A stretch of 64,000 bases of DNA from Devosia neptuniae (GTDB lineage: Bacteria > Pseudomonadota > Alphaproteobacteria > Rhizobiales > Devosiaceae), in the NCBI RefSeq assembly GCF_025452235.1, contig NZ_CP104965.1, positions 3,158,501 to 3,222,500 of the forward strand, read 5' to 3'. Under the pieces are notes generated by a model, which searched no databases, was not told the DNA's origin, and saw only the letters and a program-made list of their open reading frames with translations. A program made the position numbers and the translations under genes. Of this stretch, positions 47,703 to 51,151 are shown piece after piece. Each line of letters begins with the position of its first letter. Positions within the stretch are counted from its first letter, which is position 1.

Positions 47703-48124
47703 TCCATATGGTCAAACTCAGCGTCGGGGTGGCAAGCCTGGCGGAACTCGAAAGCTACCGTGACGAGCGCGCCCATTGGTGGGGCGCCGATTACGGCGAG
47801 GACGTGCATGTGCACCGCACCCGCATGCGCCCCAAGCGTGCCGAGGAGATGGAAGGCGTGTCCTCGATCTATTGGGTCATCGCCGGCGCCATCGTCTGCC
47901 GCCAGCCCATCCTGCGCCTGGCGCCCTATACCGATGCCGAGGGCAAGGATTACTGCGACATCATCATGAGCCGCGACATGGTGCGCACCGTGCCCTATCC
48001 CAAACGTCCCTTCCAGGGCTGGCGCTACCTCCGCCCCGAGGACGCCCCGCCCGACCTGGGCGCGAACGAGAATGCCGAAGCGCTGGCCCTGGCAGCGGAT
48101 CTGGCGAAGCTGGGGCTGATCTAG
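47699..48124 (+). CDS. DUF1489 protein
   Basis: 141 residues from the ATG that overlaps the GST stop. Conserved features: HMVKLSVGVASLAELESY, HVHRTRMRPKRAEEM, SSIYWVIAGAIVCRQPIL and GWRYLRPEDAPPDL. This family is confined mainly to alphaproteobacteria and has no known function. It is translationally coupled to the GST gene. Confidence 0.9.
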   Translation: MIHMVKLSVGVASLAELESYRDERAHWWGADYGEDVHVHRTRMRPKRAEEMEGVSSIYWVIAGAIVCRQPILRLAPYTDAEGKDYCDIIMSRDMVRTVPYPKRPFQGWRYLRPEDAPPDLGANENAEALALAADLAKLGLI

Positions 48125-48140
48125 CGTCGCTTATGCCAAC

Positions 48141-48234
48141 CCACGGTGTCATTCCCGCGAAAGCGGAAACCTCCGTTTTCTTTATGCCAGTGCGTAAAAC
48201 AGAGGTTCCCGCTTTCGCGGGAATGACATTGTGG
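48141..48234. repeat. Palindromic repeat, copy C
   Basis: 33-base arms (48141-48173 and 48202-48234) with three mismatches; core GTCATTCCCGCGAAAGCGG. Shorter centre than copies A and B. Confidence 0.85.
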
Positions 48235-48287
48235 CAAAGCACAAATTTCGCTCCGAGGGCACCTTCTCCCACACAGAAACCGCCGCG

Positions 48288-48302
48288 TTAACCAACCCTT
48301 AA
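48288..48302 (+). promoter_or_regulatory. CtrA-type box upstream of mipZ
   Basis: An exact TTAA-N7-TTAA (48288-48291 and 48299-48302), the consensus for the cell-cycle regulator CtrA, 57 bases before the chosen mipZ start. Confidence 0.65.
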
Positions 48303-48358
48303 CCATGCGGGTTCGATGTGTTGACCAAGAGTTAATCGTTCCTGATTTGGAGACGGCG

Positions 48359-49186
48359 ATGGGGCAGGGGGCACATGTCATTGTGGTGGGCAATGAGAAG
48401 GGCGGGTCGGGGAAGTCGACCACGGCGTTTCACCTCGCCATTTACCTGATGCACCATGGCTATCGCGTCGCCACCATCGACGTGGACAGCCGGCAGCAGA
48501 CCTTTACCCATTATGTGCGTAACCGCCGCGCCTGGACGCGGGAGCGGGGCCTTAATGTGCCCAATCCCAAGCATTTCCATCTGCCAACGGCCTGGGGCGA
48601 TTCGATCAAGGACAATCAGCAGGCCGAGCTGGCGGTGTTCCGCAAGGCGATTGCCGAGGTGGATGGGGCGGTCGATTACCTGGTGATCGACACGCCCGGT
48701 TTTGACACCAATCTGACGCGGCTGGCCCATACCATGGCCGATACGCTGGTGACCCCGCTCAATGACAGCCTGATCGATCTGAACGTGCTGGCGCGGGTCG
48801 ACCCCGAGACGGGCGAGCCGGTCGAAACCAGCCATTATGCACGGCTGGTGCAGCGAGCGCGCTCGGAGCGGCTGGCCGCAGATGGCAAGAACATCGATTG
48901 GGTCCTGGTGCGAAATCGCATTTCCATGCTGGGCTCGCGCAATGCCAATCAGGTGCATGCGACACTGGAGCGGATCGGCACGCGCTTTGGCGCCAGGGTG
49001 GCCGATGGCATTGCCGAGCGGGTGATCTTCCGCTCGCTGTTTGCCAGCGGCATGACGGTGTTCGATCCGCTGGAGGAGGTTGCGCTGGGTGGCGCGCCCT
49101 CGATGTCCCATGTCAGTGCGCGGCAGGAATACCGCAATCTGGTGGGGGCGCTGCAATTGCCGGTGCGGCAGCGGATGGCGGCATAG
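48359..49186 (+). CDS. mipZ: Division-site positioning ATPase MipZ (first copy)
   Basis: 275 residues from MGQGAHVIVVGNEKGG; GGAG precedes the ATG by 6 bases, and a longer frame from 48305 would cover the promoter. ParA/MinD-type deviant Walker A NEKGGSGKST with signature Lys14, A' box IDVDSRQQT (Asp41, Asp43), Walker B LVIDTPGFDTNLTRLAHTMAD, and the MipZ-type DWVLVRNRISML and RVIFRSLFASGMTVFDPLEE segments. MipZ gradients from ParB block FtsZ near the poles. Followed by a close paralogue. Confidence 0.92.
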   Translation: MGQGAHVIVVGNEKGGSGKSTTAFHLAIYLMHHGYRVATIDVDSRQQTFTHYVRNRRAWTRERGLNVPNPKHFHLPTAWGDSIKDNQQAELAVFRKAIAEVDGAVDYLVIDTPGFDTNLTRLAHTMADTLVTPLNDSLIDLNVLARVDPETGEPVETSHYARLVQRARSERLAADGKNIDWVLVRNRISMLGSRNANQVHATLERIGTRFGARVADGIAERVIFRSLFASGMTVFDPLEEVALGGAPSMSHVSARQEYRNLVGALQLPVRQRMAA

Positions 49187-49218
49187 GCTCTGCCTGTTCA
49201 GCAATATTTGTAACAGAA

Positions 49219-49235
49219 CCACCCTTGCCGGGTGG
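49219..49235 (+). other. Small hairpin between the two mipZ genes
   Basis: CCACCC/GGGTGG stem with a 5-base loop in the 93-base gap; no T-tract. Confidence 0.4.
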
Positions 49236-49279
49236 CGCGAAACACTGACACTTGCCAGACGTAGTAGGAGTGATTTGCC

Positions 49280-50119
49280 GTGCGACAGGGCCCGCATGTC
49301 ATCGTCGTCGGCAATGAAAAGGGCGGGTCGGGCAAATCGACTACGGCCTTTCATCTGGTCATCTACCTGCTTTACCAGGGCTATCGGGTCGCTTCGATCG
49401 ATGTGGATAGCCGCCAGCAGACCTTCACCCACTATGTGCGCAATCGGCGCGACTGGGCCAGGGCACACGGCTTGAGCCTGCCGCATCCGACCCATTTCCA
49501 CCTGCCATTGGCGCAGGGGGATTCGGTAAAGGAAAATCACGGCCGCGAGTTCGAGATGTTCCGCCAGGCGATAGGCGAGGTGGAGGACGATACCGATTTC
49601 CTGGTGATCGACACACCGGGCTTCGACACCAATCTGACGCGGCTGGCGCATTCGCTGGCCGACACGCTGGTCACCCCGGTCAATGACAGCCTGATCGATC
49701 TCAATGTATTGGCGCAGATGGACCCGGTGACGGGCGCGCCGCGTGAGATGAGCCATTATGCCCGGCTGGTGCAGCGAGCCCGCTCGGAGCGTCTGGCCAT
49801 CGATGGCAAGACCATGGATTGGGTGCTGGTGCGCAACCGCATCTCGATGCTGTCTTCGCGCAGCATGCGCCAGGTGCAGACCATGCTGGAGCGGATCGCC
49901 GCCCGCTTCGGCTGTCGGGTCGCCGAGGGCATTGCCGAGCGCGTGGTGTTCCGCTCGCTGTTTCCCATGGGCCTCACAGTGTTCGACCCGCTGGACGAGG
50001 CGCTATTGGGCGGCGCGCCATCGCTGTCGCATGTGGGCGCGCGCGAGGAGTATCGCGCGCTGGTGTCGGCATTGCATCTGCCGGTCAAAGCCCGCGCCAA
50101 GGTGTCCGCCGAGGGGTAA
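49280..50119 (+). CDS. Division-site positioning ATPase MipZ (second copy)
   Basis: 279 residues, GTG start behind TAGGAG. By eye about two-thirds to three-quarters identical to the first copy over the whole length, with every ATPase motif retained (Lys14, Lys19, Asp41, Asp43, LVIDTPG). Differences cluster in residues 57-105 and at the C-terminus (KVSAEG). Likely an in-tandem duplication that has diverged. Whether it makes a heterodimer with the first copy or works separately is open. Confidence 0.9.
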   Translation: MRQGPHVIVVGNEKGGSGKSTTAFHLVIYLLYQGYRVASIDVDSRQQTFTHYVRNRRDWARAHGLSLPHPTHFHLPLAQGDSVKENHGREFEMFRQAIGEVEDDTDFLVIDTPGFDTNLTRLAHSLADTLVTPVNDSLIDLNVLAQMDPVTGAPREMSHYARLVQRARSERLAIDGKTMDWVLVRNRISMLSSRSMRQVQTMLERIAARFGCRVAEGIAERVVFRSLFPMGLTVFDPLDEALLGGAPSLSHVGAREEYRALVSALHLPVKARAKVSAEG

Positions 50120-50131
50120 CGAGAGCAGGGC

Positions 50132-51151
50132 TTAGGCCACCAAATTCGCCAGCACAATCTCCCGCCACACCCGGTTGGGCGTCACCCAGGCATCCCATTC
50201 ATTGTAATGGCCCGAATAGATGACCACGGCCACGCCAGCGTCCGGCATGAGCCACAGCCGCTGTCCGCCATTACCGAAGCCGGCCGCCCAGTTGCGCTCT
50301 CCGGAAAGAGCCGGCGTAGGCGCCTCACCAAGGAACCACAGCCGGCCATAACGCAGTCCGTCGCCGGTCTCGATGGCCGGCTTCAGCGATGCCTCGATCC
50401 AGCCCCGCGAGACGATGCGGCGTCCCTCATATTCGCCGCCCTTGAGCACCATATTCCCGATCCGCAGCAGGTCGCGCGGTCGCAGCCGCAGGCCGGAGGC
50501 GGCGGATGCAACGCCATCGGGGCCGCTATTCCATTGGAATTGCTTGATGCCGAGCGGGCCGAACAGCGTTTCGCGGGCAAAATCGGGCAGCGATTGCCCA
50601 GTACCGCGGGCGATCAGTGCGCCGATCAGCGCCACGCTGCCGCCGGAATAGATCCAGCGCGTGCCCGGCTCGGCGACGACAGGCTGTTCGAGGATAAAGC
50701 GATAGCGATCCGGCGCATTTTCCATGGCAATTTCGCTATTGAGCGGATCGGTATAGGGGCGGTTCTCGTCCCATTGTAGCCCCATACTCATGGTCAGGGC
50801 GTGCTCAATGGTGATGCCGGCTTTGGTCGTGTCGGCCTGCAGGTCGGAATAATCTGGGAATTGGGCGAAGAGCGGGGCTTCGGGCGGCGGCACCAGGCCC
50901 CGGTCGACCGCTATGCCATAGAGCAGGCTAACCACGCTCTTGGTGACTGAGCGGAGGTCATGCAGCGTCTGGGCCTCGAAGGTGATGTCACCAAGCGGAT
51001 CGCCCCAGTTTTCGTCTTGGCCAGTGTAATAAGTTTCGAGCGCCAATTCGCCGTTGTGCCCGATAAGCACGGCATGCAGGTGGCGAAGCAGACCGGATTC
51101 TATGCCGGCTTCGAGCTTGCGGGGCAGGCTGGGATCGAAGGAAGGCGACAT
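50132..51151 (-). CDS. Serine hydrolase, beta-lactamase/class C family
   Basis: 339 residues, no signal peptide. SxxK motif SVTK (Ser68, Lys71), tyrosine motif YSG (Tyr168) and a late GFGNGGQRLWLMPD in the position of the KTG box. These are features of the penicillin-binding/esterase group (EstB, D-aminopeptidase-like). It is cytosolic by sequence, so a beta-lactam role is unlikely; ester or amide substrate unknown. It is convergent with the second mipZ. Confidence 0.85.
   Translation of the reverse strand: MSPSFDPSLPRKLEAGIESGLLRHLHAVLIGHNGELALETYYTGQDENWGDPLGDITFEAQTLHDLRSVTKSVVSLLYGIAVDRGLVPPPEAPLFAQFPDYSDLQADTTKAGITIEHALTMSMGLQWDENRPYTDPLNSEIAMENAPDRYRFILEQPVVAEPGTRWIYSGGSVALIGALIARGTGQSLPDFARETLFGPLGIKQFQWNSGPDGVASAASGLRLRPRDLLRIGNMVLKGGEYEGRRIVSRGWIEASLKPAIETGDGLRYGRLWFLGEAPTPALSGERNWAAGFGNGGQRLWLMPDAGVAVVIYSGHYNEWDAWVTPNRVWREIVLANLVA

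Follow-up and report, generated by a model that had tools for sequence, protein, structure and literature searches.

The mipZ tandem of Devosia neptuniae

The stretch of DNA analysed here (the window) comprises 64,000 nucleotides of the Devosia neptuniae contig NZ_CP104965.1 and carries two complete mipZ genes, arranged head to tail on the forward strand. The first, mipZ-A (48359..49186), starts with ATG and encodes 275 amino acids, the second, mipZ-B (49280..50119), starts with GTG and encodes 279 amino acids, and the 93 bp between them (49187..49279, forward strand) hold neither a CtrA box nor a terminator-like site. The two proteins are 73% identical, and each matches PF09140, the Pfam family of MipZ, along its full length (profile positions 1–261 of 262), with 320 bits for A and 321 bits for B at a cut-off of 20.7, which bears out the two complete tandem copies 93 bases apart that had been reported in a first-pass annotation. 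Neither protein reaches the cut-off of any NCBIfam model that was matched. In the genome as a whole (4,715,470 bases, two contigs), A and B are the sole full-length MipZ matches, the four others being partial and scoring 36.8 bits at most, yet above the low cut-off. The closest relatives among named records are mostly Devosia, and the A protein of a Rhizobiales isolate (L015) is 99% identical to that of the window.

MipZ, which binds ParB as a monomer, forms a gradient and as a dimer inhibits FtsZ, is the textbook example of a spatial FtsZ inhibitor and has mostly been studied as one protein. To regard it as normally encoded by a single gene, as the first-pass annotation did, is nevertheless too strong, since Magnetospirillum gryphiswaldense likewise has two MipZ per genome, MipZ1 and MipZ2, with different weight in division (PMC7022226), and several Devosia genomes have at least three MipZ matches each.

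The residues of the ATPase site are the same in both copies. The signature lysine K14, the P-loop residues G15 and K19, the A' box residue D43 and the Walker B motif (D111-T-P-G) are identical in the window pair, in agreement with the earlier reading; D111, P113 and G114 are invariant across 22 aligned MipZ proteins, and the residues equivalent to Caulobacter K13, G14, K18 and D42 are 100% conserved in 29 A and 73 B genes, as well as in 21 copies of a dispersed type, C, and in 3 of an intermediate type, I. The divergence that had been claimed for residues 57–105 and for the C-termini is equally clear, the identity between A and B being 88% over residues 1–56, 51% over 57–105, 83% over 106–195, 53% over 196–210, 74% over 211–268 and 18% in the tail. 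Residues 196–210 fall in the DNA-binding segment, and the majority residue of the A and B groups differs at positions 69, 79, 96, 196, 200 and 210.

In its AlphaFold model (pLDDT 87.3) MipZ-A has the MipZ fold: in the PDB, its top five matches are all chains of Caulobacter MipZ, with TM scores (query) of 0.82–0.84, and the Foldseek alignments with Caulobacter crescentus MipZ (PDB 2XIT, 2XJ4, 2XJ9) give 38–39% identity to A. Nine residues of Caulobacter MipZ contact DNA, including R194, R196, K197, R198, R219 and R221 (PMC7229837). Two of them, R194 and R221, are common to the Caulobacter protein, A and B, like K13, G14, K18 and D42, and L237 is mostly kept. By contrast with Caulobacter MipZ, R198 is replaced by Q in most Devosia A and B, including both window copies, and mostly by L in other genera; R219 is replaced by A in both types, and R196 mostly by A in the A type and by M in the B type (A and M, respectively, in the window). 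Position 197 is N in the A and R in the B of the window. To judge by the alignment, both window copies deviate from the Caulobacter DNA-contact set mostly alike, and remaining basic residues may stand in for the altered ones.

The divergence of residues 57–105 and 196–210 in the window pair and the six positions at which the groups differ would fit a different task for each protein, one of them (A or B) acting at midcell or on another partner and the other forming the polar gradient. Two MipZ proteins with different localisation are in fact known in M. gryphiswaldense (PMC7022226).

Distribution of the copies and gene order

A strong MipZ match is present in at least 127 of the 136 genomes of the family. 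For Devosia, loci were fetched from 63 of 75 genomes; further matches of G087, G088 and G092 lie outside this set, and the named Devosia-type loci (L007–L024) were left out of the counts. The first-pass annotation had proposed to look for the same tandem pair in related genomes, and the pair is found in 25 of the 63, nine of which also have a third copy, C. Four genomes have A and no B (G006, G030, G036 and G102, B being absent among the matches listed; two with C), 30 have B and no intact A (five with C) and three have the intermediate type I (two with C), while one genome has a C copy alone among the fetched loci. G094, in which A is in pieces, is counted both among the 26 tandem B genes and among the 30 genomes without an intact A.

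The gene order is mgtE-GST-DUF1489-mipZ-dacA-clpS-clpA. In tandem loci, dacA lies downstream in 25/25 and DUF1489 upstream in 22/25; DUF1489 precedes the single B of other genera in 18/18 loci, and both genes flank all four A-only loci and all three I loci. Next to the single B of Devosia, DUF1489 is adjacent in 15/29 and dacA stands on the usual strand in 3/29, with neither of the two in 14/29 (in fetched stretches of about 4 kb or less), which may mean that part of the B-only lineage has mipZ at another site, or has acquired other neighbours around it. The ancestral mipZ slot is clear for the tandem, A-only, I and other-genus loci, though not for all single Devosia B. The C copies sit elsewhere, and clearly common neighbours are limited to those of G020, G026, G070 and G086.

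Such a patchy distribution has to be weighed against an account in terms of dosage or redundancy, according to which the two proteins have one function, the second copy serves just to increase the MipZ dose, the differences in promoter and tail matter little and drift removes either copy. The absence of B from the four A-only genomes (among the matches listed), the lack of an intact A in 30 of 63 and the sameness of the ATPase residues in A and B all speak for it, as do the A of G014, split across two frames, and the fast B of G078/G011 (dN 0.197, versus 0.041 for A). The A copy of G094 also looks broken, being in fragments in a poor assembly. In L161 (G078) and L171 (G011), B begins just 12 and 29 bp past the stop codon of A; devoid of an upstream region of its own and evolving fast, this B may be decaying. 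The same distribution tells against a different task for each protein, since the presence of A alone or B alone in several species indicates that neither task would be indispensable.

Origin of the pair and selection

Two protein trees were built. The first held 149 proteins, without three G094 fragments, and was given an outgroup of 23 loci from among the 62 of more distant mipZ genes; all 25 tandem B group there with the single-copy mipZ of the family (73 rows, support 98), and none of the tandem A copies falls inside this group. The second, of 113 rows, excluded the outgroup, G094, the broken A of G014, the long-branch B of G078 and ten other single B, and it recovers A+C (98/87), A+C+I (100/98) and C (100/100) as clades, with A alone at 68/48 and as one group in 66% of bootstrap trees. 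The B of the window's group (89/55) and of G003/G017 (90/47) stand weakly on the A side in this tree, so the basal order on the B side is uncertain. The trees show B to be the ancestral type, found alone in other genera, and A to be the derived copy, akin to the dispersed C copies. A MipZ tree had been called for in the first-pass annotation, and in both trees the A and B copies separate across species and not within them, which rules out a recent species-level duplication; neither the within-species clustering nor the decay of ATPase residues that had been named as signs of a redundant duplicate is seen, these residues being fully conserved in A, B, C and I.

On a proxy species tree, made from the flanking proteins of 64 loci (those in which 350 or more residues could be aligned), the B-only genomes G074 and G079 are basal in Devosia and the A+B state is spread over the rest. 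The presence of A takes two changes at the fewest, a number that also allows two gains; one gain with later losses is preferred because the A copies have promoter and tail in common. One duplication early in Devosia would have given rise to A, which later losses would have removed from a B-only clade and from G076; B would have been lost separately in several lineages. As far as the protein trees go, there is good support for A+C having arisen once, and just moderate support in the case of A by itself.

Two further groups of loci may be mentioned here. In G085 (L154), G016 (L176) and G096 (L177), a single mipZ in the usual slot has A-like residues at 79 and 96, a longer tail with a different ending and an off-consensus box, and is possibly an A/B hybrid. 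In another genus, C-type copies of G145 (L245) and G142 (L246) lie inside the Devosia C clade and have a perfect CtrA box, which suggests that gene and promoter were transferred together.

In 16 genome pairs, dN/dS ranges from 0.019 to 0.165 for A and from 0.040 to 0.187 for B, values that show both genes to be under purifying selection; dS between A and B within a genome is 0.62–1.19 (8 genomes). The earlier suggestion that the copies are retained by selection is supported by the number of genomes with the pair, by the cross-species split between A and B and by the low dN/dS.

A CtrA box before one of the two genes

Upstream of mipZ-A lies a CtrA-type box, TTAACCAACCCTTAA (48288..48302, forward strand), which is a perfect TTAA-N7-TTAA and starts 71 bp before the start codon. 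In scans of the 250 bp before the start codon, the perfect box is found in 29/29 A genes (at –66 to –72; shuffled expectation 0.00), in 2/21 C and 0/3 I, and in 0/73 B (0/26 tandem, 0/29 single Devosia and 0/18 other-genus genes). The B gene of the window has no TTAA-N7-TTAA in the preceding 250 bp even with one mismatch allowed. When one mismatch is allowed throughout, boxes are found before 29 A, 21 C, 3 I, 7 tandem B, 9 single Devosia B and 4 other-genus B, with shuffled expectations of 0.73, 0.43, 0.03, 0.57, 0.89 and 0.58, respectively, and the C copies mostly have a TTAG variant. The one-mismatch boxes of B (7/26 tandem and 9/29 single Devosia) all lie at –95 to –60, so that a weak box is probably ancestral and, surviving in some B, may leave these with some CtrA input.

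The conservation of the A promoters was compared in 27 of the 29, after two near-duplicates had been dropped. The half-sites are 100% identical, the next four bases (CCAT) 91% and the 7-base spacer 46%, and the 40 bases before the box are only 28–29% identical, about chance. That the box is kept before every A, though the bases preceding it have drifted this far, is difficult to reconcile with an effect of dosage alone. It had been proposed that the copies might be expressed at different times; that a perfect box precedes all A genes and none of the B genes is positive evidence in this direction, from which we infer the difference in timing.

Across 101 loci (0.89 Mb), all selected for the presence of mipZ, there are 37 perfect boxes, of which 31 are located at most 250 bp before mipZ (29 A and 2 C); among the more distant mipZ genes, 1/62 has one. 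The genome of the window contains 36 perfect boxes, versus 28 for the reversed pattern, and is barely enriched in them. It encodes CtrA (L282; NF045991, 427 bits, cut-off 350). Fifteen CtrA-box loci of this genome were read, with a family search for the gcrA-like protein only: a perfect box stands 107 bp before this gene (L265), whose product scores 143 bits, under the 280 cut-off of the model.

In the region 48100–50200, a sigma-70 scan gave no promoter-like site and the forward strand has no terminator-like site, so that transcription from the A promoter can continue into B. Control of A by CcrM through GANTC was considered and rejected, as there is no conserved site and 15/29 A promoters have one anywhere in 250 bp. 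Other elements were seen in the vicinity. Several tandem B promoters (L150, L152, L153, L159 and others) show, by eye, a palindrome-like GTTAA-N4-TTAAC within about 110 bp before B, and the motif CTTGCC occurs in 20/26 tandem B promoters versus 0/29 A promoters; both are perhaps sites of another promoter or regulator. Between DUF1489 and the CtrA box, the window holds an inverted repeat (48141–48234) with 39-nt arms, 90% complementary and 16 nt apart, which resembles a REP-type intergenic repeat.

The C-terminal tails

MipZ-A of the window ends in Arg-Met-Ala-Ala (49172..49183, forward strand), its lineage's form of a motif of A and C that is usually Arg-Leu-Ser-Ala. The ending [LM][SAC]A is found in 28/29 A, the sole exception being the broken copy of G014, in 16/21 C, and in 0/73 B and 0/3 I; a looser X[SATC]A ends 21/21 C and 2/73 B, and Ala of any kind 15/73 B. 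When A copies are compared with C copies, identity is 78% over the last four residues, versus 32% and 10% over the two preceding four-residue blocks. B has a motif of its own, F.[HE]M, near the end in 41/73. Most A proteins end in Ser-Ala; the window's lineage (four genomes) has the variant RMAA on A and is missing F.[HE]M from B.

The maintenance of the tail in 28/29 A, and in its looser form in 21/21 C, across a variable linker is a second observation that dosage would leave unexplained, as drift would not hold box and tail in one type only, and we regard an explanation by dosage or redundancy as unlikely. The difference between the tails (F.[HE]M in 41/73 B, [LM][SAC]A in 28/29 A) can also be taken as support for separate tasks, the two tails docking different partners, for which Magnetospirillum MipZ2 and the midcell MipZ of Rhodobacter may be compared. 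The tails would likewise allow the different partner that the first-pass annotation had proposed for a second MipZ. The window pair, however, is without the B tail motif and has a variant of the A tail, and a division by task or partner seems rather improbable too.

ClpXP substrates are marked by non-polar C-terminal residues (PMC8973945, PMC7083601, PMC4470285), and in Caulobacter a C-terminal Ala-Ala is the typical signature, changes to Asp-Asp stabilising NstA and KidO (PMC4470285, PMC7083601). The small non-polar tail of A and C resembles such signals and, by analogy, may be a degradation signal. The Ser-Ala ending of most A is weaker evidence for a degron than Ala-Ala, and a docking motif would fit the A tail equally well.

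Division partners, the Min system and genomes without MipZ

FtsZ has one match in the genome of the window, and each of the two contigs carries one ParB-family gene. The two ParB-family genes could suggest that A or B serves the ParB-family protein of the 533-kb contig (C1), as a MipZ for a second replicon; tandem pairs are, however, also present in single-contig genomes that are 98–99% complete and without sign of a second replicon (G009, G026, G028, G075, G080), which makes this explanation very unlikely indeed. A duplication of FtsZ to match that of MipZ was rejected as well, given the one match in the window's genome and two full ones only in G079 among 75 Devosia; in this genus, FtsZ is in two pieces in G018 and G025, and 3/75 genomes have none.

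The models of MinC and MinE have no match in the window's genome, and each matches 9 of the 136 family genomes, the same nine. In G079, a basal Devosia, MinC, MinE, a B-type MipZ and two FtsZ matches occur together, so that both placement systems coexist. A full MipZ is lacking, among the matches listed, from nine of the 136 family genomes (G018, G025, G125, G021, G127, G098, G157, G158, G159), which points to MipZ being dispensable in places; eight of them have partial PF09140 matches only, of at most 41 bits, G098 (55% complete) has none, and MinC and MinE have no match in any of the nine. In G018 (L294), G025 (L295) and G125 (L298), dacA follows DUF1489 and the interval holds no mipZ match; in G021 (L296) and G127 (L297), there is no mipZ within 1.5 kb of DUF1489. 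Since FtsZ is in two pieces in G018 and G025, there may be errors in these assemblies; in G021, FtsZ has one full match.

A possible division of labour in time

On balance, we think it probable that the labour of the two proteins is divided in time, B being independent of CtrA and A being timed by CtrA and perhaps unstable; the timing, the turnover and the partners of both are here read from sequence. MipZ-B would provide a basal, CtrA-independent pool that forms the usual ParB-seeded inhibitor gradient, and A would add MipZ while CtrA is active; if CtrA is an activator of A, this would fall in the late predivisional and newborn stages. Activation at these stages is a guess from the distance between box and start codon, the transcription start being unmapped, and by analogy with minCD in S. 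meliloti CtrA might instead repress A. ClpXP, or a protease related to it, would then clear MipZ-A by way of the C-terminal tail. The FtsZ-inhibiting dose would in this way be raised after division and before the next Z-ring, and with A and B combined the MipZ dose would change in the course of the cell cycle. As either copy occurs alone in some species, the split between A and B would concern mainly timing and dose rather than basic activity.

The nearest parallel is a protein of another kind. In Caulobacter, kidO is under CtrA control. KidO is a FtsZ-binding division inhibitor limited to part of the cell cycle, and its turnover by ClpXP at G1-S depends on the C-terminal alanines (PMC7083601), much as proposed for MipZ-A; it is oxidoreductase-like and outside the MipZ family. 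Control of a placement factor by CtrA is already known, as its targets include mipZ and ftsZ in Caulobacter and minCD in Sinorhizobium, with no placement factor in Hyphomonas (PMC7200025). The division-site inhibitor genes minCD are under CtrA in Sinorhizobium meliloti, where they are repressed by it (PMC5900048), and in other Rhizobiales, and in Agrobacterium a TTAA-N7-TTAA precedes minC (PMC5900048, PMC7200025). Compared with these, the Devosia window uses MipZ, with no MinC or MinE found, and has the full box on one paralogue only, whereas Caulobacter is described with one MipZ (PMC6315104). The available portion of the M. gryphiswaldense account mentions no CtrA box or tail on one copy (PMC7022226). 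In the literature searched, outside which most subscription papers lie, we found neither a pair of MipZ paralogues that differ in having a CtrA box nor a publication treating both Devosia and MipZ.

A bolder version, which we put forward tentatively and think doubtful, is that Devosia places its division site with two MipZ proteins in lieu of MipZ plus KidO or Min, a standing MipZ-B and a CtrA-driven, ClpXP-cleared MipZ-A, the latter forming with B the mixed dimers that the first-pass annotation had also considered. If this were true, the master regulator would re-dose the inhibitor gradient in each cycle, and MipZ would be a timed signal.

From the comparison of genomes, the pair of the window looks like one case of a pattern that spans the genus, a spatial regulator with an apparent temporal switch on one of its copies. 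Devosia offers a natural series, with genomes that have A and B, A only, B only or an extra C, and a few without a full MipZ or MinC/MinE. The mipZ locus makes it testable how a spatial gradient system gains temporal control, and the series also bears on bacteria that have neither MipZ nor Min.
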